Assembly: GCF_018457165.1 (NCBI RefSeq)
Contig: NZ_JAFMNX010000003.1
Span: forward strand, 434,001-498,000
Source: Tianweitania aestuarii
GTDB taxonomy: Bacteria; Pseudomonadota; Alphaproteobacteria; Rhizobiales; Rhizobiaceae
Reading direction: 5' to 3'
DNA length: 64,000 nucleotides
Position numbers and translations under genes: made by a program. Each line of letters starts with the position of its first letter. Within the stretch, counting starts at the first letter, position 1. Of this stretch, positions 23,902 through 40,530 are shown in pieces. Below the pieces are notes generated by a model, which saw nothing but the letters and a program-made list of their open reading frames with translations, had not been told where the DNA came from and did no database searches.

Positions 23902-24570
23902 ATGTTGGAGCCCATCAAGCTTCGGTCTCTCTCAAACGAGGCGCTTGATCGCGTTGTGCTTGCAATCACATCTGGCGAGTTCGAACCAGGCGAGAAGCTG
24001 TCGGAGTCCAAGTTGGCACGTCAACTTGGAATCAGCCGGGGTCCGGTCCGCGAAGCGTTGCATCAGCTGGAAGGCAAGCTGGTGCAGCGAGAGCCTCGTC
24101 TGGGTGTTCGAGTCATCCAGTTCGATCATGACTCACTTCAGCAGCTTTTTTATCTTCGGGAAGCGCTTGAGGGCATGGCAGCACGCCTTGCAGCGGAACG
24201 GGCACCCGATGATTGGGCAGATCGTGCTGAGAGTATGTTGCGCGGTGACGAAGCCAACATTCGAGATACAGGAAGTCGCGCTTACCGTCAGCGCTCAGTG
24301 GATGAAGATTTTCACCTCTTCATCGCACGCGCATCCGGGTGCGCTAATATTGAGCGAATTTTGCTCAACGAGGTCAACTACCAGCTGCGAATTGCGCGCT
24401 TAAAATCCTCGATGCGGCCCGGTCGCGCCGAAGAAGCACTCCGCCAACATTTCGCGATTGTAGATGCGATCCGCGCTCGCGATCCTGACAAGGCGGAAGC
24501 GGCCATGCGCATTCATATCTCATCGGCGCGCGATGGTTCCGTAGCCGTCTTAAGCGAGCCCATGGCTTAA
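23902..24570 (+). CDS. GntR-family regulator, FCD subfamily
   Basis: A 222-residue GntR/FCD regulator. The N-terminal winged helix contains GEFEPGEKLSESKLARQLGI then SRGPVREALHQLEGKLV. The C-terminal FCD all-helical domain (about residues 85-215) shows likely metal/acid-binding residues in DEDFHLFIA, LRQHFAIVDAI and MRIHI. FCD regulators usually sense carboxylic acids. GGAG at about 23888 precedes the ATG. It is the first gene of the island and lies just upstream of the seven-gene operon, whose promoter region carries an inverted repeat it could bind. Confidence 0.9.
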   Translation: MLEPIKLRSLSNEALDRVVLAITSGEFEPGEKLSESKLARQLGISRGPVREALHQLEGKLVQREPRLGVRVIQFDHDSLQQLFYLREALEGMAARLAAERAPDDWADRAESMLRGDEANIRDTGSRAYRQRSVDEDFHLFIARASGCANIERILLNEVNYQLRIARLKSSMRPGRAEEALRQHFAIVDAIRARDPDKAEAAMRIHISSARDGSVAVLSEPMA

Positions 24571-24714: not shown

Positions 24715-25584
24715 ATGAAAAGAAACCAGAAGCTCCGATCTCTCATCGCGCGCCGCGATGCAGTTACGGTTCCCGGTGCAGCGAATGCAATGTTTGCACG
24801 CGTGATCGAAGATCTCGGCTTCGAGGCGGTTTATGTTACGGGCGCGGGCATCGCCAATATGCGGTTGGGTGCGCCAGACGTCGGACTGACAACTGTGACC
24901 GAGGTTGCGGATACTGTCGCTGCCATTTCGGACGCTGTTGATCTTCCGTTGATCGTAGATGCGGATACCGGTTTCGGAAATGCCGTGAACACTGTGCGGA
25001 CCATCCGACTTTTGGAGCGGGCTGGCGCGTCGGCAATCCAGCTTGAAGATCAGGTATTCCCCAAAAAGTGTGGCCACTTCAACGGCAAGGATGTCATCCC
25101 GGCTTCTGAGATGCTGCAGAAGATAAAGGCAGCCGTGGATACGCGAACCGACCAAGACCTTCTGATAATCGCTCGCACTGATGCACGCGCGATCGAAGGG
25201 CTCGATGCGGCGTTGGACCGTGCGGCTGCTTATATCGAGGCCGGTGCGGACATGACCTTTGTGGAGGCACCGGCAAGCCTAGAAGAATTGCGCCGCATCG
25301 GCACTGAGCTCGTCGTTCCGCAGGTCGCCAACATCGTTTTTGGCGGGAAAACGCCTGATCCGGGCCGCAAAGCTTTGGCTGAGAACGGTTTCTCGATCGT
25401 GTTGTACGCCAACGCCGCTTTGCAGGCCGCATTGCGCGCATCCACGCAGGTTCTGAGCGCCTTGCGCGACGAGGGCAGTCTCGACGGCGTCGCCGATCTG
25501 CTTGCCGGTTTTGATGAGCGCCAGCGTTCGGTGAACAAGGATTATTGGGACGGTCTCGAAGCCAAGTACAAGCAAGCGCTTTAA
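24715..25584 (+). CDS. Isocitrate lyase/PEP mutase-superfamily carbon-carbon lyase
   Basis: A 289-residue member of the isocitrate lyase/phosphoenolpyruvate mutase superfamily, which includes 2-methylisocitrate lyase, 2,3-dimethylmalate lyase and oxaloacetate hydrolase. Metal-binding residues are in LIVDADTGFGNA. The catalytic loop is PKKCGHFNGKDVI, the K-K-C-G-H form of C-C lyases rather than of mutases. IIARTDARAIEG and MTFVEAPAS complete the barrel. The ATG at 24715 with AGGA upstream is preferred over an in-frame start at 24625, which lies in the operator. It would cleave a branched malate- or isocitrate-like acid to two oxo/carboxylic acids. Confidence 0.88.
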   Translation: MKRNQKLRSLIARRDAVTVPGAANAMFARVIEDLGFEAVYVTGAGIANMRLGAPDVGLTTVTEVADTVAAISDAVDLPLIVDADTGFGNAVNTVRTIRLLERAGASAIQLEDQVFPKKCGHFNGKDVIPASEMLQKIKAAVDTRTDQDLLIIARTDARAIEGLDAALDRAAAYIEAGADMTFVEAPASLEELRRIGTELVVPQVANIVFGGKTPDPGRKALAENGFSIVLYANAALQAALRASTQVLSALRDEGSLDGVADLLAGFDERQRSVNKDYWDGLEAKYKQAL

Positions 25585-25626: not shown

Positions 25627-26307
25627 ATGTCGCGCCCGTGGGATGGTATCATCAGCGAAGACGATCTTCGCGCTTATGACGCTGCCGGCTTTGGCCGTCC
25701 GACTGGACTGGGTAAACGCCCTGCGCTGGTGATTATCGATGTTCAATATCGCACAACCGGAACGCGTCCGATGCCGTTCTGGGAGGCGATCGGTGAGTTC
25801 AAAACATCCTGTGGCGAGATCGCCTGGGATGCGATGGCGAATATCGAGCGGTTGCTTCAGGTCTTTCGCAGCCGCAACTGGCCTGTTCTTTACCCTTATG
25901 TCGCGCCCAAGCAGTCCTTTGATACTGGCCGCTTAGGTGACAAGGTTCCGGCGCTGCTCGGCGTTGCCGCAAAGGGCTACGAGTTCCCGCCGCAGATTGC
26001 GCCTCGCGAAGGCGACATCCTGTTGCCGAAGAAGCATCCTTCGGCATTCTTTGGAACCCCGCTCGCCAGTTACCTGATAGACCTTGGCGTGGACTCCCTA
26101 GTTGTGGTGGGGTGCTCGACTTCAGGCTGCGTGCGCGGCTCCGTGGTGGATGGTTTTGCTTACAACTTCCGTTGCACCGTGCCGCAGGATGCTTGTTACG
26201 ACCGGTCATTCACCTCGCATGCGGTGAACCTTTTCGACATGGCTTATAAATATGCCGACGTGCTGTCTACCGAAGACACGCTTGCGGCGCTGGAAGCGCT
26301 CGCCTGA
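25627..26307 (+). CDS. Isochorismatase-fold amidohydrolase (N-carbamoylsarcosine amidase/maleamate amidase-like)
   Basis: A 226-residue cysteine hydrolase. The catalytic triad is seen as Asp in ALVIIDVQY, Lys in LPKKHPSAFFGT and Cys in VVVGCSTSGCVRGS. The N-terminus MSRPWDGIISEDDLRAYDAA and the Ser-Gly after Cys resemble N-carbamoylsarcosine amidase and maleamate amidases rather than true isochorismatases. It is expected to hydrolyse a small amide or carbamoyl group to an acid plus ammonia. GGGAGGAGAAAGCT before the ATG is a very strong ribosome site. It is the second gene of the island operon. Confidence 0.87.
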   Translation: MSRPWDGIISEDDLRAYDAAGFGRPTGLGKRPALVIIDVQYRTTGTRPMPFWEAIGEFKTSCGEIAWDAMANIERLLQVFRSRNWPVLYPYVAPKQSFDTGRLGDKVPALLGVAAKGYEFPPQIAPREGDILLPKKHPSAFFGTPLASYLIDLGVDSLVVVGCSTSGCVRGSVVDGFAYNFRCTVPQDACYDRSFTSHAVNLFDMAYKYADVLSTEDTLAALEALA

Positions 26308-26343: not shown

Positions 26344-27708
26344 ATGAGCGATGAGCTTGACGTTCTAGTAATCGGCGCTGGGGCCTGCGGGCTCTGTGCC
26401 GCGATCCAGGCTCACGACAAAGGCTTGAGCGTAGCCATTATCGAGAAGAACGAGCGGCCGGGTGGCAACTCAGCTCTCTCGACAGGATCAGTGCCTGCCG
26501 CCAACAGCCGATTTCAGCGTGAAGCAGGCATCAAAGACAATCCCGAGAAGTACTTTCGTGACCTGATGGGGATTGCTGGCGAAACCGAGGCGGAAAACCT
26601 TGTGCGCCGCATGACAGCTGTTTCCGCGGAAACGGTGGAATGGCTGATCGATGATGTTGGCTGCCGAATGGAGCTCATTACCGCTTACAAGCATATCGGG
26701 CATTCCGTATCCCGCCTACACGCTCCGCGCTCGCGCCGGGGCCAAGATCTGGTCGATGACCTCGTTGGCGCCGTGGAGCAACGCGACATTCCGCTGGCGG
26801 TTGGCAACTCTGCCAAAAGTCTGATCGTCGAGGATGGCCGGGTTGTCGGCGCTGTTGTGGATGCTGGCGACGGCGACGTGATGGAGATCCGTGCCCGCGC
26901 GGTGATACTTGCATCAAACGGCTTTGGCAACAATCGCGCGCTCGTGGAGCGCTACATACCAGAAATCGCCAGCGCACAGTATTTCGGCGCCCTCGGATCG
27001 GATGGTGAGGCGATCATCTGGGGTGAGGAGCTCGGCGCTGACTTTCGCAATATGGCAGCCTACCAGGGCTATGCCGCCGTGGCCGATCCTCATGGCTCGA
27101 TCCTCAGCTGGACCACCATCGAAAAAGGCGGCGTTCTCGTGAACGAGAAAGGCGAGCGTTTCGGTGACGAAAGTCTCGGTTATTCCGGCTATGCCAAGCA
27201 TGTGTTGGCCGAGGGTTCGCGTTCCTGGGCAATTTTCGACCAGCGGATCTTCGAGATCGCCATGCAGGAAGAAGAGTTCGCCGAGCTGTGGGAGCACAAA
27301 GGGCTCAAAAAGGCAGACACAGTCGCTGAAGTGGCTTCGGCGCAGGGGTTAGATGGCGCTGCCGCGGAAGCTGCCGTGGCTGCTTACAATGCGGCTGCCG
27401 AGCAGGGCGTGGCCGATGCGTTTGGTCGCACGGCTTCCGGCTTGGCGCCGTTGCAAGCGCCATTTTATTCCTGCCGTACCTTGCCAGCGTTGTTCCACAC
27501 CCAGGGCGGCCTTGCTGTGGATGATGATGCCCGTGTTCTGCGCAAGGATGGTTCGGTAATCGCCGGACTTTACGCCGGTGGCGGTGCTGCTGCGGGTGTT
27601 TCGGGCAAAGCCGGCGCCCTCGGCTACGCTTCCGGCAATGGGCTTCTTACGGCGGTGGCGCTTGGCCGACTGGCGGCGCGTGCGGCTGCTGCCGACATAG
27701 GGGCGTGA
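26344..27708 (+). CDS. FAD-dependent oxidoreductase, fumarate reductase flavoprotein-like
   Basis: A 454-residue FAD_binding_2-family protein. The dinucleotide-binding motif is VLVIGAGACGLCAAIQA with the downstream ERPGGNSALSTGS. A capping domain follows (about residues 230-340), then the C-terminal FAD contacts HTQGGLAVDDD and AGLYAGGGAAAGVSG. Relatives reduce or form the double bond of fumarate-like acids or 3-ketosteroids. The protein is soluble, without a heme or flavin-transfer domain. It overlaps neither neighbour but lies one nt before the MmgE/PrpD start. In this pathway it probably introduces or removes a C=C bond in a carboxylate. Confidence 0.86.
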   Translation: MSDELDVLVIGAGACGLCAAIQAHDKGLSVAIIEKNERPGGNSALSTGSVPAANSRFQREAGIKDNPEKYFRDLMGIAGETEAENLVRRMTAVSAETVEWLIDDVGCRMELITAYKHIGHSVSRLHAPRSRRGQDLVDDLVGAVEQRDIPLAVGNSAKSLIVEDGRVVGAVVDAGDGDVMEIRARAVILASNGFGNNRALVERYIPEIASAQYFGALGSDGEAIIWGEELGADFRNMAAYQGYAAVADPHGSILSWTTIEKGGVLVNEKGERFGDESLGYSGYAKHVLAEGSRSWAIFDQRIFEIAMQEEEFAELWEHKGLKKADTVAEVASAQGLDGAAAEAAVAAYNAAAEQGVADAFGRTASGLAPLQAPFYSCRTLPALFHTQGGLAVDDDARVLRKDGSVIAGLYAGGGAAAGVSGKAGALGYASGNGLLTAVALGRLAARAAAADIGA

Positions 27709-27709
27709 G

Positions 27710-29086
27710 ATGACGCTTTCGGCTGATGTGATTGCGCGACTGCGCTCTGTGGAGCGCTTGCCGGACGGCGTTCAAGCGACGGCTGTTCGCCATTTCACCG
27801 ATGCGATCGGCGTTGCCCATGGTGCGGCAGGGTCGCAAGCGGGCGCGCATTGGCGGAAATACGCCAAAGCACAAACAGCACAGGGAACGTCCAGCGTAAT
27901 TGGCCTGTCGCATGGACTGCCTGCCGCAACGGCTGCCTTGGTGAATGGCGGGCTGATCCACAGCCTGGAATATGACGACACCCATACCGGCTCGATCGTC
28001 CACGGATCAGCGGTTCTGGCTGCAACTGCCTTAGCGGCCGGAGAAGCGGCTGGAGCGACCGGCGCGGCGGTGATGCGTTCCTATGCGCTGTGGTACGAAG
28101 TCTTCATCCGCTTTGGCCTAGCAGCCGCGGGCGGGTTTCAGAACCGCGGTTTCCAGCTGACTTCCGTGGGTGGCGCCTTGTGTGCTGCCGGCATTGCAGC
28201 CGATCTGAAAGGGCTCGACGCCGACGCCTCGCAGGCCGCTATCGGAATCGCGTTAAGTCAGGCGTCGGGTGTTTTCGAGTTTTTGACGAACGGGGCAACC
28301 GTAAAGTCAATGCATCCCGGCTGGGCGGCTCATGCTGGACTGATCGCCGCCGATCTCGCGGAAGCGGGTATGACCGGGCCTTTCACCGCGCTGGAAGGTA
28401 AATTCGGCTTGTTCCGGGTGTTCGCGGGTGATGATGCGGCGCCTCAGCGGTTTGCCGATATGCTTCCCGACATGGGTGAAGTTTGGCATCTCGACAAGGC
28501 AGCCTACAAGTTTCATCCCTGCTGCCATTACCTGCACCCCTTTATCGAGGCCGCGCGCTTGATGCAGGCGCAGGGCGTGCGGGCGGACCAGATCGCGAGG
28601 TTCGATTGCGGTGTGCCGAAGGGCGCTGCCGGCATCATCGCCGAACCTTGGGCTTCAAAGGTCGCGGCTGCGGGGCATCAAGCGCGCTGGTCGCTGCCGG
28701 TAACCGTGGCAATGCAGATGGTCGATGGTCGCGTGGACCTGGCGAGTTTCGAGGAACCTCTTTCGCCGGGTGTTTTGGAACTGGCGGAGCTCAGCGACTG
28801 GCACGTGTTGACCGATAGCGCGTTTCCCGCTCTGTTCGATGCTTATCTGCGCCTGACGCTCAAGGATGGGCGTGTGGTGGAAAAGCGGATCGACGATGTT
28901 TACGGCAACGGCTCTCGTCCGCCGGCGCAAGCTGACCTGGATGGCAAGTTTGCTGGCAACATGGAGCGGTTTGCACCAGGTGTCGATGCCGCGCCGCTGC
29001 TTGCTGCTTTGACGGGCTTGCCGAAGGCAAATGACCTCGGTGAGGTCACGCGCACGCTGCGATCCGTTGTTTCGTTGGAGGAGTGA
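27710..29086 (+). CDS. MmgE/PrpD-family protein, first copy
   Basis: A 458-residue MmgE/PrpD protein. The family includes 2-methylcitrate dehydratase, cis-aconitate decarboxylase and iminodisuccinate epimerase. Conserved stretches include HGAAGSQAG-like residues near 30-45, LEYDDTHTGSIVHGSAVLAA (residues 80-99), SMHPGWAAHAGLIAADLAEAG and YKFHPCCHYLHPFIEAA. It starts one nt after the flavoprotein stop. Beside an isocitrate-lyase-like enzyme it could hydrate or isomerise the substrate before C-C cleavage, like PrpD before PrpB. The exact reaction cannot be read from the sequence. Confidence 0.88.
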   Translation: MTLSADVIARLRSVERLPDGVQATAVRHFTDAIGVAHGAAGSQAGAHWRKYAKAQTAQGTSSVIGLSHGLPAATAALVNGGLIHSLEYDDTHTGSIVHGSAVLAATALAAGEAAGATGAAVMRSYALWYEVFIRFGLAAAGGFQNRGFQLTSVGGALCAAGIAADLKGLDADASQAAIGIALSQASGVFEFLTNGATVKSMHPGWAAHAGLIAADLAEAGMTGPFTALEGKFGLFRVFAGDDAAPQRFADMLPDMGEVWHLDKAAYKFHPCCHYLHPFIEAARLMQAQGVRADQIARFDCGVPKGAAGIIAEPWASKVAAAGHQARWSLPVTVAMQMVDGRVDLASFEEPLSPGVLELAELSDWHVLTDSAFPALFDAYLRLTLKDGRVVEKRIDDVYGNGSRPPAQADLDGKFAGNMERFAPGVDAAPLLAALTGLPKANDLGEVTRTLRSVVSLEE

Positions 29087-29090
29087 TAGC

Positions 29091-30491
29091 ATGGCAGCCT
29101 ATGATCTGGTTATCCGTGATGTTGAAGCCGTTCTTCCGGCGTCAGGGCGTACCGCTTGCGATATCGCGATCCGCGACGGCCAGATCGCTGCGATACTTCT
29201 GCCCGGCAGCTCTGTTGAAGCGTCAGAAATCCTCGATGGTAAGGGCCTGGTGGCGCTGCCTGGAGTCATCGACTGTCATCTGCATCTCGGTCATGGCAAA
29301 GACATATCGCGGCCGCGCGAACCGAAGGATGCAGATGTCGAGACCGCTTCGGCCGCGTTGGGCGGCGTAACGTGCATGATCCCTTTCCTCATGTCATCCG
29401 AGCCGCATGCGGCTGATTTCGGTGAGGTGAAGGCGGTAACGGAAGCGGGTGCGCGGATCGATTTTGGCTACCACTTCATTATCTCGACCGAAGCGCAGCT
29501 GGCGGAAGTGCCTGACTACATCAGTAAATTCGGCGCGCCGACGCTGAAGATCTTCATGAACAATCGCGGTGGGGAAGGCAAACGCCTCAATCTGCCCGAT
29601 ATCGACGACGGCTTTCTTTTCCGTTTGGCGGAAGCCGCCGCGCAGCATGGCGGCATGGTTGCTCCGCATCCCGAGAACATAGAGATCGCCTGGGTGCTGC
29701 GGGACCGCGCCATGAAGGCTGATCCCGACGGCCAAGCTGGGCTGGCCTCTTGGGATGCGTCACGACCGGATTTCGTTGAGGCCGAAGCGGTGCAGCGGGC
29801 TTCCTATGTTGCCAATGTTGCCGGCGCGCCGCTTTACGTGGTGCATACGTCGTCTGCGGCCGCGCTGGAAGCCGGCCTCGCGCGCCGCGACGCCGGTGAC
29901 GAGATCTATTTTGAGACCTGCCCCCATTACCTCACGCATGACATCACCGATCCGATCGGCGAAGTCGCGAAGATTAATCCGCCGCTGCGCAGCCGCGACG
30001 ATTGCGAGCGGCTGTGGCAGGCTATCGAAGAGGGCGACATCGACACTGTCGCCACCGATCACGTCCATCGCGACATCTCGAGCAAGGCCAACGGGATCTG
30101 GGCTGCTTCCCCTGGATGTCCGGGAATGGAAACGCTGCTCCCTGTCATGCTGACCGAAGGCTACCATGGCCGCGGTATTCCGTTGGAGCGATTGGTGGAA
30201 GTCCTGTCGGAAACACCCGCGCGTTTGATGGGGCTCGATGTGCGCAAAGGCACGCTTTCGGTGGGCAAGGATGCGGATATCGTGCTGCTTGATCTGAACG
30301 CTGAATGGACCCTGACGCGCGACAAGGTCGCATCTTCGGCCGGCTACTCGATCTACGAGGGCAAGACCTTCAAGGGCGCGATCCAACATACGTTTGTGCG
30401 CGGTCACACAGTCGTGCGCGACGGGAACCTCACCGAAACCAGCGCCGGCATCGGACGCTATCAGCATCGCAAACTCGGTTTCAGAGGTTAG
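29091..30491 (+). CDS. Dihydropyrimidinase/hydantoinase-like amidohydrolase
   Basis: A 466-residue cyclic amidohydrolase. The metal ligands are seen as DCHLHLGHG (residues 61-69), Lys in TLKIFMNNRG (likely carboxylated), His in MVAPHPEN and YVVHTSS, and Asp in VATDHVHRD. This fits dihydropyrimidinase, hydantoinase and dihydroorotase-type ring openers acting on cyclic amides or imides. The ATG at 29091 has GGAGGAG upstream and follows the MmgE/PrpD stop by 4 nt. In the operon it would open a ring whose amide is then removed by the amidase genes on either side. Confidence 0.88.
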   Translation: MAAYDLVIRDVEAVLPASGRTACDIAIRDGQIAAILLPGSSVEASEILDGKGLVALPGVIDCHLHLGHGKDISRPREPKDADVETASAALGGVTCMIPFLMSSEPHAADFGEVKAVTEAGARIDFGYHFIISTEAQLAEVPDYISKFGAPTLKIFMNNRGGEGKRLNLPDIDDGFLFRLAEAAAQHGGMVAPHPENIEIAWVLRDRAMKADPDGQAGLASWDASRPDFVEAEAVQRASYVANVAGAPLYVVHTSSAAALEAGLARRDAGDEIYFETCPHYLTHDITDPIGEVAKINPPLRSRDDCERLWQAIEEGDIDTVATDHVHRDISSKANGIWAASPGCPGMETLLPVMLTEGYHGRGIPLERLVEVLSETPARLMGLDVRKGTLSVGKDADIVLLDLNAEWTLTRDKVASSAGYSIYEGKTFKGAIQHTFVRGHTVVRDGNLTETSAGIGRYQHRKLGFRG

Positions 30492-30494
30492 CAA

Positions 30495-31496
30495 ATGGTG
30501 GGCCCTCCCGTTGTCGCTATCATAGGGGCGGGGGGCACGATATCCTCGCTTGCGGTTGATCAGCGAGACTATGTCAATTACCCCGAAACGGGGCGCAAAT
30601 TGTCGGTTGACGAGGTGTTGGCGCATCTCCCCGAACTGGTCGGCTTCGCTCAGCTCATTCCGCTAAGCTTCCGCTCGGTTGGTTCAAGCGCGGTGGGTCC
30701 CGAGGATTGGCTGCGGCTGCACCGAACAATCACCGATGCGGTTGCCGCGCACCCGGAGATCGTTGGTGTGGTGATCCTGCACGGAACCGCTACGCTTGAA
30801 GAAACCGCCTTCTTTTTGGATTTGACGCTGCCAGTAGGCCGTCCCGTGGTGTTGGTGGGGGCGCAACGGCCGCTCAACACAGTGTCGTCCGATGCCGCCG
30901 CCAATGCGATAGCAGCCGTGCGCGTTGCCGCCGATCCAGGTGCGGCCGGGCGTGGCGTGATGGTTGTTCTGAATGACGAAATCCATGCCGCCCGTGTGGT
31001 GACCAAAAGCTCGACCCTCCGGCTTCAAACCTTCAACTCAGGTGCTGCGGGCTTGCTGGGTGTAGCCGACCCGGATCGGATCGTTTTCAACTACCCTGCC
31101 GAGGGCGTTGACCGTTTTCGCTTGCCAGTGGACGTCAGCTATCTGACGGAGCTTCCGCGCGTCGACATCTGCTACGCTTATGCCGGAAGTGACGGAACGG
31201 CGGTCCGCGCTTTCTTGGCCGCCGGCGCGAAAGGCCTGATTTCTGCAGGTTTCGCACCCGGTATGCCGGCCACGCAGGAACGGGCCGCTATAATCGAAGC
31301 GTCGCAAGCAGGCATAGCGGTGGTGCAAGCCAGTCGTGCAGGTCAGGGGCGAGTTGTTCGACGCGATTGGCTTAAGCAGAATGGCTGGATCGCAGCCGGT
31401 GCTCTCACCCCGCACAAGGCACGCATTTTGCTGATGCTGGGCCTGCTGGTTGAGCATGATCCGGAACAGCTGCAAACATTCTTCGATAGAGTCTAG
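30495..31496 (+). CDS. Asparaginase/glutaminase-fold amidase with Asp-to-Ala change in the active site
   Basis: A 333-residue L-asparaginase-like protein. The nucleophile Thr15 is in IIGAGGTISSL and Lys171 in VVTKSSTLRL is conserved. The second catalytic segment reads HGTATLEETAFFL where classical enzymes have HGTDTLEET. The Asp that completes the Thr-Lys-Asp triad and contacts the substrate amino group is thus Ala99. The amidase chemistry may be kept while specificity for alpha-amino amides is lost. A substrate such as a dicarboxylate half-amide is possible. It starts 3 nt after the hydantoinase-like gene. Confidence 0.85.
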   Translation: MVGPPVVAIIGAGGTISSLAVDQRDYVNYPETGRKLSVDEVLAHLPELVGFAQLIPLSFRSVGSSAVGPEDWLRLHRTITDAVAAHPEIVGVVILHGTATLEETAFFLDLTLPVGRPVVLVGAQRPLNTVSSDAAANAIAAVRVAADPGAAGRGVMVVLNDEIHAARVVTKSSTLRLQTFNSGAAGLLGVADPDRIVFNYPAEGVDRFRLPVDVSYLTELPRVDICYAYAGSDGTAVRAFLAAGAKGLISAGFAPGMPATQERAAIIEASQAGIAVVQASRAGQGRVVRRDWLKQNGWIAAGALTPHKARILLMLGLLVEHDPEQLQTFFDRV

Positions 31497-31512: not shown

Positions 31513-32412
31513 ATGGAGTTGCGTGATCACGGACGATATGGCTACTCGGCGCTGCCGGAGCGGCCAGACTACCATTGGCCTGGCGGCAAGAGATTGGCGC
31601 TTTGCATCTGCAACAATATCGAGATTTTCAGCTACCGATCCGGATTAGGCAGTGATAGCGCCACACTGACCGCGCCGCAAACGCACCGAAATTACGCTTG
31701 GCGTGATTATGGCAACCGCGTTGGACAATGGTACCTGTTTGATCTGCTCGAAGAGTGCGGCCTTCCTGCTTCGCACAACGTCAACTCCGCCGTGTTGCGG
31801 CAGTATCCGCAGATCCTACAGCGGATCCTGTCGCGCGGTGACGAGATCGTCAGTCATGGCCGCTCGAATGGCGAACGGCAGGACGTTCTATCCGAAAACG
31901 AAGAGCGCCAGCTGATCGCCGAGGCGACCGAAGAAATTACATCCTTGGCCGGCTACCAGCCCAAAGGCTGGATGGGACCATACTTCGCGCAAAGCGAGGT
32001 CACGCTCGATCTACTTCAAGAAGCCGGTTATGAGTTCATGCTGGATTGGCCGGTTGACGATCAACCGGTGTGGATGCGGACGCGAGGCGGGCACATCTTG
32101 TCCGTCCCTTACTCCGTGGAACTGAACGATTCGCCTTCCATGGTGTTTCGCCAGGAAAGCATCGCGTCTTTCGAGTGTATGATCATCGATCAGTTCGATG
32201 AGATGCTGTTTCAATCAGCCAAGCGGCCCCTGGTTTTCTCGCTGATTACCCACCCCTTCATCATAGGGCATCCTTACCGGCTGCACGCATTGCGCCGGGC
32301 ACTGGCGCATATTCTGCTCCACAGAGACGAGATCTGGATCACCACCGTTGGCGGGGTGAACGCCCATATCCGCAGCTTGCCGTCCGGCATTCTGCCGGGC
32401 GCGCCCGACTGA
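31513..32412 (+). CDS. Polysaccharide-deacetylase-fold hydrolase, allantoinase PuuE/cyclic imidase-like
   Basis: A 299-residue protein with the polysaccharide deacetylase (NodB) fold. The typical metal motifs of true deacetylases are only partly present: the TFDD-type motif is replaced by LALCICNNIEIF, while HGRSNGERQ (residues 117-125) and LITHPFIIGHPYR are kept. This pattern is seen in PuuE allantoinase and metal-independent cyclic imide hydrolases of similar length. There is no signal peptide, so it acts in the cytoplasm. The ATG at 31513 has AGGAG at 31499-31503; the in-frame start at 31450 lies inside the asparaginase-like gene and is rejected. It ends the operon. Confidence 0.78.
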   Translation: MELRDHGRYGYSALPERPDYHWPGGKRLALCICNNIEIFSYRSGLGSDSATLTAPQTHRNYAWRDYGNRVGQWYLFDLLEECGLPASHNVNSAVLRQYPQILQRILSRGDEIVSHGRSNGERQDVLSENEERQLIAEATEEITSLAGYQPKGWMGPYFAQSEVTLDLLQEAGYEFMLDWPVDDQPVWMRTRGGHILSVPYSVELNDSPSMVFRQESIASFECMIIDQFDEMLFQSAKRPLVFSLITHPFIIGHPYRLHALRRALAHILLHRDEIWITTVGGVNAHIRSLPSGILPGAPD

Positions 32413-32442: not shown

Positions 32443-33798
32443 TCAGGCGGGGCTTGCCCGCAGCGCGATGATGCGGCGGCGAAAGCGGTCGAGCCCTTCC
32501 TTGAGCACTTCGCTGTCCCCACCGGCTGATTGTCCGATGCCGTGAAGCTCCTCAACCTCAAAATTGGCACATAGCAGTTGCTGCAGACGCTTCGGACCAA
32601 TGGGTGTGAATGGACCTTGCAAAGGCACTTGTCCTCTCGCTTCCGACCGAGCCCATTCCGCGCCGTAGCGGGACGCGCGGTTGCGAACGCTAAGCACAAG
32701 ATGGCCTTCATTGCGCAGCACACGGCGCACCTCTCGCAATATGGCTGCGGGATCGGCCATGTGTTCCAGCGATTGTGCGATCACCACAAGATCAACGCTT
32801 TGCGTCGCGAAGGGCAACGACGTGCCGCTGAACAAGGCACCCTCGACCGAGTGGGTGATCCCTTCGCGCGGCAGCCTGTCTTGGATAAAATGCAGATTGT
32901 TTTCGTGCAACTCCACGACAGTAAGCGATGCATCCAGGGGCAGCCTTCGTGCGAGTGTAACAGTGCTGGTTCCACCCCAAGGCATGAGTTCGGCCACCTT
33001 TGCCTCTGTGGGAAGAGACGGGATCAGATCCAGCTCACGCTCACTCGCTTCGCCTTGGCGCCGCGAGGTATAAACGCCGTTAAGCGGTGACTTGGCCCAA
33101 ACCGACCACGCGCGATAATCAGCCAGTTGAGCCCAGCTCCATTGTGTAGGATCCCATTGCGCATAGGGATTAGAGTCTCGGGAGACGGCATGGAAGGGAT
33201 AGGTATTCGCGTTTTCAACAGGGTAGATCGTGTTCTCAGGACGCTCGAACGTTTGAAATGAAACAACGCTGTTAAGCGGACGGCGCGGCGGCTTGCGTGC
33301 TGGCGCATCGGGATGTGCGCGACCCAAAGCAATGGCACCCTGACAGTCGAACACCGAAGGCAAATCAAGCATGGCGCGAACGCCTTCAGGATCACCGATG
33401 CCGGCGTTCCAGATTGCATGATACCCGCGCAAATGGGCCGAAAGCATCAGATGATATCCGGCCGCCGCAACGCCTTGAACAACGGAAAAGTTGTCATGCG
33501 TCCAACCTTTCTGAAAGCACAGGTAAACCAGAGCGGAGCAGGTGCGGAAATGCGGATTGCCGCCGGCCAGCTCGGCTGCCCGCGCGAGTTGCTGCGGATC
33601 ATCCACGATGATGAAATGCCAATGTTGCTGATTGCAGGAGGAGGGGGCTTCGAGCGCATCCGACAGCATCAGCAGCAACTCCTCGCGAGCAATGCGGCTA
33701 CCGTCGAAATCGCGGCAAGACAAGCGAGATGCCAGCCGAGACAAAATCGTCTGAGTGTCATTCGCTGAAAGGGTCTGCTGATCGTTTTGGATTTCCAT
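32443..33798 (-). CDS. Nitroreductase-methyltransferase fusion protein
   Basis: A 451-residue two-domain protein. Residues about 15-185 are a nitroreductase-family FMN domain (RLSCRDFDGSRI, APSSCNQQHWHFIIVDD, AIALGRAHPDAPARKPPRRP). Residues about 245-440 are a class I SAM methyltransferase (VAELMPWGGTSTVTLARRL, LTVVELHENN, SQSLEHMADPAAILREVRRV, GHLVLSVRNR). The linker holds YPFHAVSRDSNPYAQWDPTQ. The reading frame is continuous, so this is a real fusion and I know of no described example. It is transcribed against the seven-gene operon and diverges from the TRAP operon. The partner activity and substrate are unknown. Confidence 0.82.
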   Translation of the reverse strand: MEIQNDQQTLSANDTQTILSRLASRLSCRDFDGSRIAREELLLMLSDALEAPSSCNQQHWHFIIVDDPQQLARAAELAGGNPHFRTCSALVYLCFQKGWTHDNFSVVQGVAAAGYHLMLSAHLRGYHAIWNAGIGDPEGVRAMLDLPSVFDCQGAIALGRAHPDAPARKPPRRPLNSVVSFQTFERPENTIYPVENANTYPFHAVSRDSNPYAQWDPTQWSWAQLADYRAWSVWAKSPLNGVYTSRRQGEASERELDLIPSLPTEAKVAELMPWGGTSTVTLARRLPLDASLTVVELHENNLHFIQDRLPREGITHSVEGALFSGTSLPFATQSVDLVVIAQSLEHMADPAAILREVRRVLRNEGHLVLSVRNRASRYGAEWARSEARGQVPLQGPFTPIGPKRLQQLLCANFEVEELHGIGQSAGGDSEVLKEGLDRFRRRIIALRASPA

Positions 33799-33945: not shown

Positions 33946-34962
33946 ATGATCAAGACCCTCTTAGGCTTTGGACTCGCAGCCGTCGCAGCGGCCTTCGCCT
34001 CTTCAACGGCTTCGGCGCAGGAGTTTCGGCTTAACTTCGGCCACTATCTGTCTAACTCACCTTTCGTGAAGGTAGAGCAGGATTTTGCTAAACGCGTCGA
34101 AGAGCGGACCGACGGACGCGTAAAAATCAATATTGTGTACTCAGGAGGCCTCGGCAAGGACTCCGAGTTGCTAGGCCTTGTCGGCCGAGGTGCCATTGAT
34201 ATGGCTGCGATTGTGCCGGGCTACTATGGAGATCAGCTAGTTTACAGCAAGGCTTTGCAGACGCCGTTTGTTTTCAGCAGCCCTGCACAAGCTATTGAGA
34301 TCGCTAACTACTCGTTCTCTGAGCTTCAGCCCTTTAAGGATGAAATGGAGCGACTGGGTGTGCATCGCTTGTTCCATCAGCCGGTCGACCCCTACTATCT
34401 GACGGGTAAAACGGATGCTTGTAAGTCGCTTGACGGCTTGCAGGGCAAGAAGATTCGTACGTTTGGCAGCCTCATTCCGCACATGATGTCGGCGGTCGGC
34501 GCCACGCCGGTCACGGTACCAGCTGGTGATCTTTACGAGGCTGTTGATCGCGGCACGATTGACTACTCCTTCGTCAACCTCGGCAACGTTAATGTGTACA
34601 GGCTCTATGAAGCGGGCAAGTTCACGTGTGGACCGGCTATGAACATCGCTGGTCACCTGGTTGTCATCGGCGATCGCACCTGGCAGCGCCTGCCGGATGA
34701 CATCAAGACGATCATCACTGAAGAATCCGTTCAGGCGCAGAAGGACTATGTTGCCTTCGTTGAATCGTCGGTGGCAACTTCAAGCGAAGCAATCAAGGCG
34801 GGTGGCGGTGAGATCATTGCAATCTCGCCAGAGATGCTTGCCGAGTGGAAAGAAAAGACCCCTGATCTCCTGCAAATGTGGGTTGATGAGCTGAAGGGCC
34901 GTGGTGAAGGCGAAGGAGCTGCAGCGGTTGCACAGGCCTGGCGTGAGCGGGTCGACCAGTAA
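33946..34962 (+). CDS. TRAP transporter solute-binding protein (DctP family)
   Basis: A 338-residue periplasmic binding protein with signal peptide FGLAAVAAAFASSTASAQ, cleaved before EFRLNFGH. The DctP fold is shown by VKVEQDFAKRVEERTDGRVK, YSGGLGKDSELLGLVGRGAIDM and the Arg-containing KKIRTFGSLIP, where family members bind the ligand carboxylate. SFVNLGNVNVYRLYEAGKF is also typical. It would deliver a small carboxylate to the DctQM membrane components encoded just downstream. Confidence 0.92.
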   Translation: MIKTLLGFGLAAVAAAFASSTASAQEFRLNFGHYLSNSPFVKVEQDFAKRVEERTDGRVKINIVYSGGLGKDSELLGLVGRGAIDMAAIVPGYYGDQLVYSKALQTPFVFSSPAQAIEIANYSFSELQPFKDEMERLGVHRLFHQPVDPYYLTGKTDACKSLDGLQGKKIRTFGSLIPHMMSAVGATPVTVPAGDLYEAVDRGTIDYSFVNLGNVNVYRLYEAGKFTCGPAMNIAGHLVVIGDRTWQRLPDDIKTIITEESVQAQKDYVAFVESSVATSSEAIKAGGGEIIAISPEMLAEWKEKTPDLLQMWVDELKGRGEGEGAAAVAQAWRERVDQ

Positions 34963-34990
34963 ACACTCTGAACAGTTCGTAGCAAAAGTG

Positions 34991-35500
34991 ATGGAGAGCG
35001 CGTTGAATCAACTTATCCGACGACTTGCCGTGTTCTCCGTAGCCATCGGCAGCATTGCCTTGTTGCTGTCGATGTTTCTTAGCGTCGGCGATGTGGTCGG
35101 AACGCAGATGGGGCAACCAGTCCCTGGTGCGCTTGAATTCACAGAAAGCACGATGGTTCTTGTGGTATTCGGCGGCATTGCTTGGGCGCAGATACGTCGT
35201 TCCCACATTCGCGTCGAGCTTGTTTACCTGCAAGTTGGACCGCGCATGCGCTCTGCGATGGATATCATTGCGTCCATAGCGGGCATCCTCTTCTTCGGTT
35301 TGATCATTTGGCAAGGCGCAGTAGAAGCTCTCTATAGCTGGCAGATACAAGAAGCGACGTCCGGTCTGTTGCGCTTTCCCCTTTGGCCCGCTCGCTGGAT
35401 CCTAGTGTTCGGCTCGACCATGATGGTCCTTCAGCTGCTGCTGGACCTTTGGTACGACCTGACGCACTTCGGAAACCCTCATCCGGTTGAGTTCGGCTGA
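34991..35500 (+). CDS. TRAP transporter small permease (DctQ family)
   Basis: A 169-residue membrane protein with four predicted helices (FSVAIGSIALLLSMFLSVGD, FTESTMVLVVFGGIAWAQ, IIASIAGILFFGLIIWQGAV, WILVFGSTMMVLQLLLDLWY). The motif RRSHIRVELVY after helix 2 is characteristic of DctQ. The ATG at 34991 is chosen over an upstream start at 34901 that would overlap dctP, although no strong ribosome site is seen. It acts with the large permease in the inner membrane. Confidence 0.9.
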   Translation: MESALNQLIRRLAVFSVAIGSIALLLSMFLSVGDVVGTQMGQPVPGALEFTESTMVLVVFGGIAWAQIRRSHIRVELVYLQVGPRMRSAMDIIASIAGILFFGLIIWQGAVEALYSWQIQEATSGLLRFPLWPARWILVFGSTMMVLQLLLDLWYDLTHFGNPHPVEFG

Positions 35501-35553
35501 CCTGCGGTTCTTGACCGTTTTTGTTCCCAGACCCTCGCCGGAAGGCAAACAAG

Positions 35554-36864
35554 ATGTTTGATCCAGCAACTGCTGCAATTATTGCCATTGGGCTGCTCTT
35601 TTTACTCATGCTTGCCGGTGTGCATATCGGCGTTGCGATGGGGCTGTGCGGCTTGCTCGGTATATACCTGTCGATGGGTGAGTTCGCGGCGCTGGCACAA
35701 GCTGGATCGGTGCCGTTTTCCACCGTCAACAGCTTCACGCTGGCCGTGATCCCGATGTTTATCTTAATGGGTTCTCTGGCAACACAGGCGCGGCTGACGA
35801 CAGACCTCTATGCCGCGGCTCATAACTGGTTTGCCAAACTGCCCGGTGGGTTAGCGATGACCACCACGATGGCGTCCGCAGCATTCGGTGCTGCGTCTGG
35901 ATCAACGATGGTGAATGCCGCCGTATTCACCAAAATGGCCATGCCCGAGATGACGGATGCAGGCTATGACAAGCGCCTAAGCTCAGGCTCGATTGCGTCG
36001 GCCGGCGTCTTATCCGCAATGATCCCGCCGTCCGTTCTTATGGTGATCTACGCCATTACAACCGAGCAATCAGTGGGCAAGATGCTAATTGCGGGCATAA
36101 TCCCGGGTCTCATGACCGCCTTTATCTTCTTGGGTGGCATCTATGTGTGGGCGAAACTGAAGCCCCATCATGCACCTATGCCAGAACACTCCGTATCCTT
36201 CTCGGACAAAATCGGATCCTTGAAGAACACCTGGGGCATCCTGCTTCTCTTCGCTCTGGTGATCGGCGGTATCTATGGCGGCTGGTTCATTCCAACCTAT
36301 GCTGGTGCAGTGGGAGCCTTTGGAGCTTTCCTGATCGTCTTTATGAAGCGTCGCGCTGACTTCGCGACCCTGCGCGAAACGTTTCTGGAAGCGATCCTGT
36401 CGTCCGCAACCATCTTCCTGGTTGTGATAGGCGGCATGCTGTTTGCCCGCTTTTTGACCTATACCGGACTTGTTTCGGAGGTTTCTGACTGGCTGATCAC
36501 ACAAGAACTTCCGCCTTTCGCTTACCTCATGGCCTTTGCGGTTCTGTTTCTGATCTTGGGCTGTTTCATTGAACCCATCGCCATCATCGTGATGACGCTG
36601 CCGGTCATGTTCCCTGTGATGATGAATGTTGGTTATGATCCGATTTGGCTCGGGGTCGTCGTGATCAAGATGTGCGAGATCTCCTTGATTACGCCGCCCG
36701 TTGGACTGAACGCGTTTGTAGTGCGTGCATCGTCCCCGGTCCCGCTACGGCTCGAACAGGTGTTTGCTGGTGTGTTGCCCTTTATCCTGATGGAAGTCGT
36801 TGCATTGGCTCTGTTGATTGCCTTTCCGAGCTTGGTGACCTTTCTTCCGTCGCTGATCTCGTAA
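35554..36864 (+). CDS. TRAP transporter large permease (DctM family)
   Basis: A 436-residue multi-span permease that drives solute uptake with the sodium or proton gradient. Family segments include VIPMFILMGSLATQARLTTD, AAFGAASGSTMVNAAVFTKM, GSIASAGVLSAMIPPSVLMV and LGCFIEPIAIIVMTLPVMFP. The ATG at 35554 follows GGAAGG. With the binding protein and small permease it forms a complete importer. Because it sits inside the island operon, its substrate is probably the compound metabolised by the neighbouring enzymes. Confidence 0.93.
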   Translation: MFDPATAAIIAIGLLFLLMLAGVHIGVAMGLCGLLGIYLSMGEFAALAQAGSVPFSTVNSFTLAVIPMFILMGSLATQARLTTDLYAAAHNWFAKLPGGLAMTTTMASAAFGAASGSTMVNAAVFTKMAMPEMTDAGYDKRLSSGSIASAGVLSAMIPPSVLMVIYAITTEQSVGKMLIAGIIPGLMTAFIFLGGIYVWAKLKPHHAPMPEHSVSFSDKIGSLKNTWGILLLFALVIGGIYGGWFIPTYAGAVGAFGAFLIVFMKRRADFATLRETFLEAILSSATIFLVVIGGMLFARFLTYTGLVSEVSDWLITQELPPFAYLMAFAVLFLILGCFIEPIAIIVMTLPVMFPVMMNVGYDPIWLGVVVIKMCEISLITPPVGLNAFVVRASSPVPLRLEQVFAGVLPFILMEVVALALLIAFPSLVTFLPSLIS

Positions 36865-36878
36865 TTGCGGGTAGGACA

Positions 36879-38276
36879 ATGAACGAAGCAAAGTCTTGTT
36901 CTGTTGAGAAGCACGAGGAAGTCGCAGAAGCGCTCAAGGCGCTTGTTCAACACACAACCCAACTGATATGGTCGGACTTGCCTGTTGATGTTCAACAGCG
37001 TGCCGCCACCGTCTTTTGTGATGACTTCACGTCGCTGATCGCGGCGCGGGAAGAGCCTGAACTGCAAGCCTTGAGCCAGCAAGCAGCGCGCGTAAGCGGC
37101 CCAGCCGAGGCGACGGTCCTGAACGGCGCGCGCCCTGCGCTCCGCCTGGATCGCTATTCGACGGCGCTGGTCAATGGCACGGCAGCAGACTGGGCTGAGT
37201 TGGACGGTGGCTACCGTGCGGTGGTTTGTCATGCCGCGCTCTACTGCATTCCCGCTTTGCTCGCAGAAGCCGAAGCAACAAATGCCAGTTTGCAGGACCT
37301 GTTGTTGGCGCTTGTTGTTGGCTACGAAACGGTCGCCCGCACCGCTCACGCGTTCAGCTTTCCCGGCTTGGTGCTGCATCCCCATGGCGGGCTCGCGACC
37401 GTCGGATCGGCGGCAGCGGTTGCCAAGCTGCGTGGATCCAGCGCTGACGAGACTTTCCGGGCGATCACTACCGCCGCGACCTTGTGCTTGCCGGGACCGT
37501 TCAACCATGCGGTGTCAGGCGCGCTGATCCGCAATGTGTGGCCTGGACTATGCGCGCAGAACGGCATCCGCGCTGTAGATTGGGAACCTCTGGGGATCAC
37601 CGGCAGCCCTTGGTCGATGACCGAAGTGTTCGCCGACATCTTCGGTGGCATTGTCGATGCTCGTGCATTTGATCAGGCGCTAGGAGAGGGCTGGAAGATC
37701 ACGCAAGGCTACCACAAAATGCATGCCTGCTGTCAGTACGCCCATTCCACCGTGGAGGCGATGCTTTCAGCTCTCGAACAGCGAAAGGTGGAGCCAGAGA
37801 GCGTCGAGCAAATCGTGGTCGCGACACACTGGAAGGGTCGCCGTCTGGATCGACCACAACCGGAAACCAGCTTGGCAGCCAAGTTCTCCATCCAGCATAT
37901 TGCTGCCGCTACCCTCGCTCAGGGCCACGCAGGCGCAACAGCGTTTAGTGCCGACAGCCTCGTCGATCCGGACATGGTGCGTCTGCGTGATATTGTTTCG
38001 ATTGATGCTTTTCCAGAAGACCTGCCATGGCCGAATGACCGCCCGTCGCATGTTAAGGTGGTGTTGAGCGATGGCAGCCATCTGGAAGGAACCTGCCTCA
38101 GCGCACCCGGCGGCGCGGATCAGCCGTTCAGTACGCAAGTTCTGCGCGACAAGATCCTGGGCAATCTTGCTCCGGCTTATCCCGGGGGGGCGGAATTGAT
38201 TTCCGCCGCTTTGGATCTCGATCAGGCCATTCTTGCCGCGCCTTGGCGCACGACGCTTGCGCAGATGGTCGGCTGA
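36879..38276 (+). CDS. MmgE/PrpD-family protein, second copy
   Basis: A 465-residue MmgE/PrpD protein, only distantly similar to the first copy. It shows ALVNGTAADWAELDGGYRAV where the first copy has the EYDDTH motif, HPHGGLATVGSAAAVAKL and the C-terminal YHKMHACCQYAHSTVEAM. The aspartates of the usual DD..H motif are altered (WAELDGGY). It may therefore catalyse a different isomerisation, hydration or decarboxylation. The ATG at 36879 has AGGA upstream and lies 14 nt after the DctM stop, so it belongs to the TRAP operon. The frame is open upstream inside dctM without support. Confidence 0.86.
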   Translation: MNEAKSCSVEKHEEVAEALKALVQHTTQLIWSDLPVDVQQRAATVFCDDFTSLIAAREEPELQALSQQAARVSGPAEATVLNGARPALRLDRYSTALVNGTAADWAELDGGYRAVVCHAALYCIPALLAEAEATNASLQDLLLALVVGYETVARTAHAFSFPGLVLHPHGGLATVGSAAAVAKLRGSSADETFRAITTAATLCLPGPFNHAVSGALIRNVWPGLCAQNGIRAVDWEPLGITGSPWSMTEVFADIFGGIVDARAFDQALGEGWKITQGYHKMHACCQYAHSTVEAMLSALEQRKVEPESVEQIVVATHWKGRRLDRPQPETSLAAKFSIQHIAAATLAQGHAGATAFSADSLVDPDMVRLRDIVSIDAFPEDLPWPNDRPSHVKVVLSDGSHLEGTCLSAPGGADQPFSTQVLRDKILGNLAPAYPGGAELISAALDLDQAILAAPWRTTLAQMVG

Positions 38277-38341: not shown

Positions 38342-39031
38342 TCAAGCTTCAGAAGCGCTGCCACCGGAAGAAAACAATAGCGTTAGACGGGCACGGAGTG
38401 CTTGATCGATGTGGGCGCGAGCGGCAGCTTCGGCTCCCGCTGCATCGCGGTTCAGTATCAAATCTAGCATCACCTGGTGCTCGACCAACGCCGCTTCTGA
38501 GCGTCCTTCTACTGAAAATGTCGTGCTCGGTAAAAGCGCAAGGGAGTCGTTCAGGTCGCCCAGCATGCGGCGCAGATAGCGATTATGAGCGGCTTCGTAG
38601 ATCGATTCATGAAACAGTGCATTGATGCGCGCGGCGGTCGCCGGGTCGCTCCGTTGCTGCTCGAACAAAGAGGCGATGTGCGTGAGCCCAGCTAGCTCGC
38701 CAGATGACGCATTTTCTGCCGCGAAAGCTGCGGCGCTGCCTTCCAGGCGAGCGCGAAGGGCATAAAGTTCGATCACCTGCGACCGATCCAAGGAGGCGAC
38801 GGTTAGACCGCTGGCGCCTGGTTGCACGAGGCCTCGAACCTGCAAGCGGGCAAAGGCTTCACGTACGGGTGTGCGGCTAACGCCAAGTACCGAGGCGATG
38901 TCTTCTTCCCGCAGGCGCGCACCCGACAGAAGTTGACCCGTGCGGATACGCTCCACGAGTGTGCGATAGACCCGATCGCCGCGATTTTCCTGCGTTTCGT
39001 TCTTCAAGCCGCCCACATGCTTCAGCCGCAT
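38342..39031 (-). CDS. GntR-family regulator, FCD subfamily (tcu side)
   Basis: A 229-residue FCD-type GntR protein. The HTH region is LLSGARLREEDIASVLGVSR followed by TPVREAFARLQVRGLV. The FCD domain includes ELYALRARLEGSAAAFA, NALFHESIYEAAHN, LVEHQVMLDLIL and AARAHIDQA, with the expected His ligands. The gene diverges from tcuA and the GTATAC-N4-GTATAC repeat lies between them. It presumably controls tcuAB in response to a tricarboxylate-type acid; in Salmonella that role is held by the unrelated LysR protein TcuR. Confidence 0.9.
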   Translation of the reverse strand: MRLKHVGGLKNETQENRGDRVYRTLVERIRTGQLLSGARLREEDIASVLGVSRTPVREAFARLQVRGLVQPGASGLTVASLDRSQVIELYALRARLEGSAAAFAAENASSGELAGLTHIASLFEQQRSDPATAARINALFHESIYEAAHNRYLRRMLGDLNDSLALLPSTTFSVEGRSEAALVEHQVMLDLILNRDAAGAEAAARAHIDQALRARLTLLFSSGGSASEA

Positions 39032-39112: not shown

Positions 39113-39144
39113 ATAAACATGTAAGGCAGTCGGAGTGAACCTTG

Positions 39145-40530
39145 ATGGATGCGCTGGACGTACTCGTCGTCGGTGGTGGGAATGCTGCTTTGTGCGCCGC
39201 AATCGCAGCGCGCCGCTCGGGTGCATCAGTGATGGTGGTGGAGGGCGCGCCGAAATTTTACCGAGGTGGGAACACCCGACACACCCGCAACATGCGCTGC
39301 GCTCATGACACGGCTACGCAGCACCTGACCGGTCCCTACACGGAAGACGAGTTCCTGGACGACCTACTTCGGGTCACCGAAGGCAACACGGATGAGCAAC
39401 TCGCTCGCCACATGATCTCGCTGTCTAAGCCGATGCTGGACTGGATTGGGGAACAGGGCGTTCGCTTTCAGCCTTCCCTTGGGGGCACGCTCAGCCTCGG
39501 CCGCACCAATTCCTTCTTTCTCGGTGGTGGCAGGGCCATGCTGAATGCACTTTACCTCACTGCTGAAAAGCTTGGTGTTCAGATCCAGTATGATGCTTCG
39601 GTGGTTGCACTCGACGTTGAGGATGGGCGCTTCAAATCGGCCACGATCCGGACGGTCGAAGGCGACAAGGTGGTCGAAGCCCAGTCTCTTGTTGCAGCAG
39701 CCGGTGGGTTCGAGGCAAATATTGAATGGCTCAAGGAAGGCTGGGGCGACATCGCCGATAACTTCCTGATCCGAGGCACGCCTTACAATCGTGGCGACGT
39801 TCTAAAAATGCTGATGGCAGCCGACGTCGAAACGATTGGCGATCCCACGCAGTGCCATGCCGTCGCGATTGACGCGCGCGCTCCGAAGTTCGACGGCGGC
39901 ATCATCACGCGACTTGATTGCGTGGTGTTCGGCATCGTGGTGAACCGGAACGCTGAGCGTTTTTATGATGAAGGACAGGACTTCTGGCCGAAGCGCTATG
40001 CCATTTGGGGACGTCTAGTCGCGCAGCAGCCCGATCAAATCTCCTGGATTATCTTCGACGCTAAATCCCTGAAGATGTTCATGCCGTCGCTTTATCCGCC
40101 GATCGCCGCGCAAAACGTGGCTGATCTCGCCGATAAGCTGGGGCTTCCGGTTGAAGCACTGGAAAAGACAGTGCGTGATTTCAATGCGGCGGTGCGGCCC
40201 GGAACATTTGACCACACGATCCTCGACGACTGCCACACGGAAGGGCTTAACCCACCGAAGACCCATTGGGCGCGCCGTCTGGAAACGCCACCCTTCTACG
40301 CTTACCCGGTGCGGCCCGGCATCACCTTTACTTATCTCGGCACTCGGGTGGACCGCGAAGCGCGTATGCGCATGAAAGGTGGTTTGGGCGCCGAAAACAT
40401 GTTCGCTGCTGGCGAAATCATGGCCGGCAATGTGCTCGGCAAGGGCTATGCCGCCGGCATAGGTATGACGATCGGCAGCGTCTTCGGAAAGCTCGCGGGA
40501 GAAGGAGCAGCACGTCATGCACGCGGCTGA
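39145..40530 (+). CDS. tcuA: FAD-dependent tricarballylate dehydrogenase-like protein TcuA
   Basis: A 461-residue flavoprotein of the TcuA type, which oxidises tricarballylate to cis-aconitate. The FAD motif is VLVVGGGNAALCAAIAARRS, and GGNTRHTRNMRCAHD is characteristic. Substrate-domain segments include NSFFLGGGRAMLNALY and FKSATIRTVEG, and the C-terminus ends GEIMAGNVLGKGYAAGIGMT. The ATG at 39145 follows GGAG at 39132-39135. It overlaps tcuB by 14 nt. Substrate specificity could have shifted to a related polycarboxylate, since no dedicated tricarballylate permease gene of the TcuC type is present. Confidence 0.87.
   Translation: MDALDVLVVGGGNAALCAAIAARRSGASVMVVEGAPKFYRGGNTRHTRNMRCAHDTATQHLTGPYTEDEFLDDLLRVTEGNTDEQLARHMISLSKPMLDWIGEQGVRFQPSLGGTLSLGRTNSFFLGGGRAMLNALYLTAEKLGVQIQYDASVVALDVEDGRFKSATIRTVEGDKVVEAQSLVAAAGGFEANIEWLKEGWGDIADNFLIRGTPYNRGDVLKMLMAADVETIGDPTQCHAVAIDARAPKFDGGIITRLDCVVFGIVVNRNAERFYDEGQDFWPKRYAIWGRLVAQQPDQISWIIFDAKSLKMFMPSLYPPIAAQNVADLADKLGLPVEALEKTVRDFNAAVRPGTFDHTILDDCHTEGLNPPKTHWARRLETPPFYAYPVRPGITFTYLGTRVDREARMRMKGGLGAENMFAAGEIMAGNVLGKGYAAGIGMTIGSVFGKLAGEGAARHARG

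Follow-up and report, generated by a model that had tools for sequence, protein, structure and literature searches.

Loss of the alpha-amino pocket in a clade of asparaginase-fold amidases that may act on half-amides from ring opening

The 64,000-nucleotide stretch of Tianweitania aestuarii DNA analysed here (the window; contig NZ_JAFMNX010000003.1, positions 434,001 to 498,000) encodes a protein with the fold and the nucleophiles of a type II L-asparaginase in which the residues of the alpha-amino pocket, Gln59, Asp90 and Glu283', together with Asn248, have disappeared as one set. With moderate confidence we propose from sequence comparisons that it is a cytoplasmic class 1 asparaginase-fold threonine amidase with an erased alpha-amino pocket and that it acts on a half-amide arising from ring opening. 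Its mode of action is most likely that of an omega-amidase, and it probably frees ammonia from an amide other than asparagine in the breakdown of a nitrogen-containing ring compound.

The amidase reading frame starts with ATG, encodes 333 residues without an internal stop, and has both the N- and the C-terminal asparaginase domains above cut-off. The structural model has the same whole-chain fold as the type II asparaginases over ~315 residues, and the sequence is 36% identical to type II L-asparaginase. Its score with the type II profile TIGR00520 is 257.4 bits, under the cut-off of 314.3, and those with the type I asparaginase/GatD profiles are also below threshold (TIGR00519, 111.3 against 260.5; TIGR02153, 96.4 against 324). 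The protein resembles the class 1 type II L-asparaginases of E. coli (AnsB), Wolinella and Erwinia in its fold and its Thr-Tyr-Ser-Thr-Lys residues but differs in that Gln59, Asp90, Asn248 and Glu283 are all replaced and that no leader peptide is seen; on inspection of the sequence, 12 residues precede the GGT, and no leader is visible before the first strand. Despite its type II fold and nucleophiles, the protein would thus not be classed as an L-asparaginase, failing at Asp90, at the alpha-amino pocket and at the TIGR00520 cut-off.

Residues are numbered by reference to E. coli AnsB (EcAII), whose sequence is identical to PDB 1nns over 326 residues. The original prediction had read the motif ILHGTATLEETA (HGTATLEE) as carrying Ala99 in place of an Asp, with the nucleophile Thr15 and Lys171 kept; alignment to AnsB confirms all three, the numbers being correct and the equivalents Asp90, Thr12 and Lys162. 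Ser64 and Thr98, the counterparts of Ser58 and Thr89, are also retained, as is Tyr29 (Tyr25; Table 1). The statement that the missing Asp normally contacts the substrate amino group agrees with the structure of the Pseudomonas 7A glutaminase-asparaginase, in which the alpha-amino group of L-Glu is hydrogen-bonded to Asp101, Glu68 and Glu294' (PMC7567106), the counterparts of EcAII Asp90, Gln59 and Glu283'. In E. coli AnsB, Glu283' is in contact with the nitrogen of the ligand and is linked in a network to Tyr25 and Gln59 (PMC8460627, where the catalytic-Lys loop is also named). The original prediction missed the joint loss of Gln59, Asn248 and Glu283, and the change is larger than it described. 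Position 90 is occupied by 40 Ala, 2 Gly, 3 Ser, 4 Asn and 69 Asp in an alignment of 118 sequences that includes the window protein and AnsB. None of Gln/Glu59, Asn248 and Glu283 is present in 38 of the 42 Ala/Gly rows, and the other four retain one, whereas all three are present in 48 of the 69 Asp rows; the set was therefore lost as a unit.

Table 1. Features of the amidase and its gene cluster in window coordinates; Ala/Gly rows are aligned sequences with Ala or Gly at position 90
Feature	Position	Strand	Basis
Asparaginase-fold amidase	30495..31496	+	ORF; PF00710 8.8e-51, PF17763 9.9e-27; model pLDDT 84, Z 38-39
Thr15, nucleophile (EcAII T12)	30537..30539	+	alignment; 39 Thr and 3 Ser among 42 Ala/Gly rows
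Tyr29 (EcAII Y25), retained	30579..30581	+	alignment
Ser65, replaces Gln59 (alpha-amino contact)	30687..30689	+	Gln/Glu at 59 in 0/42 Ala/Gly rows
Ala99, codon GCT, replaces Asp90	30789..30791	+	alignment to AnsB
Lys171 (EcAII K162), retained	31005..31007	+	Lys in 42/42 Ala/Gly rows
Arg176 (EcAII D167), catalytic-Lys loop	31020..31022	+	Arg in 42/42 Ala/Gly rows
Met257, replaces Asn248	31263..31265	+	alignment to AnsB
Trp292, replaces Glu283', alignment approximate	31368..31370	+	Glu at 283 in 2/42 Ala/Gly rows
GntR/FCD regulator	23902..24570	+	profile match; co-conservation
Methylisocitrate-lyase/PEP-mutase family lyase	24715..25584	+	sequence near methylisocitrate lyases and petal death protein
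Isochorismatase-family amide/carbamoyl hydrolase (RutB-/biuret-hydrolase-like)	25627..26307	+	profile matches
FAD flavoprotein, fumarate-reductase/flavocytochrome c type	26344..27708	+	profile matches
MmgE/PrpD family protein 1	27710..29086	+	profile match
Hydantoinase/allantoinase-like cyclic amidohydrolase	29091..30491	+	profile matches; ends 3 bases before amidase
PuuE-type (NodB-fold) cyclic amide/imide hydrolase	31513..32412	+	profile matches; best match PuuE 3cl6, 8e-25
Nitroreductase-like and methyltransferase domain fusion	32443-33798	-	opposite strand to cluster
TRAP transporter DctP, DctQ, DctM	33946..36864 (33946-34962, 34988-35500, 35554-36864)	+	DctP profile match; DctQ and DctM named from gene order and size; all three co-conserved
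MmgE/PrpD-like protein 2	36864..38276	+	clusters with MmgE/PrpD 1; co-conserved

The replacement of Asp by Ala is by itself weak evidence, and the argument is borne by the joint residue loss and the gene context. Succinic monoamide is already among the substrates of ordinary class 1 asparaginases (PMC8256714, PMC8948990), and the Ala is thus not needed for its hydrolysis. Residue 90 alone does not rule out asparagine either, since the D96A substitution in the Erwinia carotovora enzyme is reported, in an in silico study cited in a review, to lower glutaminase activity by 30% and to raise asparaginase activity by 40% (PMC8948990). This effect, the intact fold and catalytic residues, and the position of the amidase as the sole PF00710 gene in its genome, where a second was not found, are what would be expected if the protein were an L-asparaginase (or D-asparaginase) after all, one whose pocket is unusual and which feeds nitrogen from asparagine; we consider this unlikely in view of the concerted disappearance of the alpha-amino contacts and of a cluster made up of ring-opening hydrolases. 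The lack of a second PF00710 gene also counts in favour of the half-amide proposal. Because those contacts are lost while Ser64 is retained, the expected substrate has a carboxylate and no free alpha-amino group. The original suggestion of such a substrate is therefore plausible on the triple contact loss, although not on the Asp-to-Ala change from which it was drawn.

Asp90 is also counted among five residues crucial for catalysis (PMC8256714), so that its loss could affect or impair the chemistry as well as binding. A changed reaction, with a cyclic imide, ureido group or ester as substrate, or a non-catalytic protein would account for its absence, but we hold either to be very improbable: equivalents of Thr12, Tyr25, Thr89 and Lys162 are retained in nearly all clade members, and three other C-N hydrolases in the cluster already cover such jobs. 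The retained fold and catalytic residues instead support amide hydrolysis through Thr15.

The catalytic-Lys loop contributes a further difference, Arg176, which is a possible new carboxylate contact. If it held an extra carboxylate, the substrate might be an N-substituted or larger amide, such as a tricarboxylate half-amide or an N-substituted asparagine. The invariance of Arg176 in the Ala/Gly rows is in keeping with this, as is the recurrence nearby of TcuA/TcuB-type tricarballylate dehydrogenase genes (in the window and at loci L007 and L015). However, the loop is weakly modelled (residues 173–178, pLDDT <50), Arg occupies the same position in the Ser rows, the 4 Asn rows and 6 of the 69 Asp rows, and it is absent from the Azospirillum relative; we therefore regard a larger amide as doubtful.

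A maximum-likelihood tree was calculated from 80 rows with columns 59, 90, 248 and 283 left out. All 45 Ala/Gly/Ser rows form a single clade (support 95/98; 94% of bootstrap trees), and the loss of Asp needs one change on the tree as compared with a mean of 26 in shuffles. With 45 of the 118 aligned sequences, from many genomes, carrying the same change, a sequencing error as the source of Ala99 is ruled out. The four Asn rows (L017–L020) fall in a separate clade of the same tree; these asparaginases have the motif HGTNTIEE, Tyr at 59 and Asp at both 248 and 283, and they represent a second, independent rebuilding of the pocket. Profile searches gave matches with E <1e-120 in 20 of 385 genomes at class level and matches at 1e-60 in 10 of 395 genomes at family level, and the gene is therefore sporadic. 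In four plasmid records, clade sequences are annotated plainly as asparaginase.

In the window, the amidase lies within a cluster of hydrolase, lyase, flavoprotein and transporter genes (Table 1), and a half-amide fits this setting because the neighbourhood holds ring-opening hydrolases. The PuuE-type protein, although its best match is PuuE, scores 99.6 bits against the curated PuuE allantoinase cut-off of 424.6, and so can be likened to that enzyme and to the cyclic imide hydrolase of Pseudomonas putida with this limit. In the proposed route, a cyclic amide, imide or ureide would be imported and then opened by the PuuE-type and/or the hydantoinase-like hydrolase. The half-amide product would bind through the retained carboxylate site, formed by Ser64 and the backbone, and, as judged from the fold and the conserved residues, Thr15 would attack the omega-amide with departure of ammonia, after which Thr98 and Lys171 would help water to release the acid. 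The resulting di- or tricarboxylate would pass to the flavoprotein, MmgE/PrpD and methylisocitrate-lyase-like enzymes of the cluster. A more specific version, which we think rather improbable, is a previously undescribed pathway with an alkyl-substituted cyclic imide as the starting compound, for example a maleimide from haem or chlorophyll breakdown; the PuuE-type or hydantoinase-like enzyme would open the ring, the Asp-less asparaginase would deamidate the product, MmgE/PrpD would hydrate it, and the lyase resembling methylisocitrate lyase and petal death protein would then cleave the dialkylmalate. Downstream in the window, a TcuA equivalog (703.8 bits; cut-off 369) is followed by a TcuB-like protein (39142-41638, plus strand), and this pair is accompanied by a GntR regulator (38342-39031, minus strand).

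The neighbours of related amidases were assigned from tblastn, Pfam and record annotation because the selection of longest reading frames in GC-rich loci yields antisense ORFs. The full cluster has syntenic counterparts in Falsigemmobacter faecalis (L001), Roseivivax isoporae (L002), an uncultured Rhodobacteraceae (L003) and genome G148 (L142), in which the amidases are 59–68% identical to the window protein. The fusion of nitroreductase and methyltransferase domains is conserved at the same place in all four. The window sub-branch comprises 13 tree rows (support 99/91), and in 10 of these the amidase is close to the putative ring-opening PuuE-type gene, which is the context expected of a half-amidase (the window, L001, L002, L003, L015, L083/L142, L084/L143, L085/L149, L086/L150 and L016). 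A PuuE homologue was not found near the amidase in sub-branch members L004 (a 6.3-kb contig), L006 and L012, nor at the remaining loci of the same neighbourhood table. The amidase of L143 is flanked by two different PuuE-type genes, one 67% and the other about 30–37% identical to that of the window. At the Hoeflea-type loci, the amidase and PuuE genes occur with those of molybdenum hydroxylase subunits, and in one also with TcuA/TcuB-like genes. In Pseudohoeflea/Hoeflea, L007 (618-6302) and L005 carry two molybdopterin large subunits and an FAD subunit of a molybdenum hydroxylase, and downstream of these PuuE, a membrane-protein frame and the amidase; the frame taken in L005 for the gene that separates PuuE from the amidase gives no Pfam match and is likely the wrong one, and an alternative frame appears membrane-transporter-like by eye. 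TcuA/TcuB-like genes recur close to the amidase in L007, L015 and L142.

Other relatives have different neighbours. In the Mesorhizobium type (L011, L144, L145 and L146), the amidase lies beside a lyase of the AspA/fumarase superfamily, and a permease, a LysR gene and a binding protein of family 3 are also present at L011. Such a lyase, together with an amino-acid binding protein of this family, would suit an asparaginase. The aspartase substrate loop is GSGTSTNMN, whereas the AspA-like neighbour (L011:7484-8962 and its equivalents in L144, L145 and L146) has GGGGTAANMN in three of the four, with the GSSIMPGK loop intact; this suggests a lyase with an unusual substrate and speaks against the asparaginase reading. 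Amidases of the PF01425 family adjoin L008, L013, L122 and L123, a creatininase adjoins L006, and the Terrarubrum relative (L155) lies in a cluster with RutA-like, isochorismatase, deacetylase and nitrilase genes. Oxoadipate genes are found in the neighbourhoods of other relatives. On an Azospirillum ramasamyi plasmid (L156:3036-8984), the Asp-less asparaginase is inside a cluster of Rieske ring-hydroxylating dioxygenase and cupin genes that adjoins intradiol dioxygenase and muconate cycloisomerase genes, for which degradation of an aromatic amide is possible.

The members in these other neighbourhoods also have Ala at position 90. The Ala is indeed common to the homologues with the window's gene neighbourhood but extends to relatives with unrelated ones, and its restriction to the window operon is ruled out. 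Since relatives elsewhere carry the same change, the Ala is, on these comparisons, old and maintained and predates the operon; the ring-opening neighbours fit the half-amide that had been predicted, but the link drawn between the Ala and the operon was too narrow. C-N hydrolases or ring-degradation genes recur among the relatives' neighbours, yet these do not make up one pathway, and because the neighbourhoods differ, the substrate may not be the same throughout the clade.

The order of steps proposed for the window resembles that in the breakdown of nicotinate by Aspergillus, in which a ring imide is opened by the imidase HxnM before an amidase releases the nitrogen (PMC9304392); an allantoinase and several cyclic imidases are among the relatives with the PuuE fold (PMC9304392). 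By this analogy, a NodB-fold cyclic imidase would precede an amidase in both, but HxnN is an amidase-signature enzyme of the PF01425 type (PMC8478523), whereas the window amidase has the asparaginase fold. An earlier description of an Asp-less asparaginase or of a half-amidase counterpart, or an assay of any clade member, was not found in a limited literature search covering half-amidases, cyclic imides and asparaginases. A half-amidase exists as a step of bacterial cyclic-imide metabolism, and the reaction proposed here is alike, the two being likened by reaction only and not by sequence.

The annotation of the clade as asparaginase is probably wrong as to substrate. Asparaginase is the enzyme used as a leukaemia drug, and the clade bears on residue roles in it: in it Asp90, Gln59 and Glu283' have been removed together by nature while the catalytic threonines remain, which puts the disputed roles of the three residues to the test. 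Conservation of the cluster is a pointer to a so far unassigned pathway of nitrogen-ring degradation in Rhodobacter-type bacteria.
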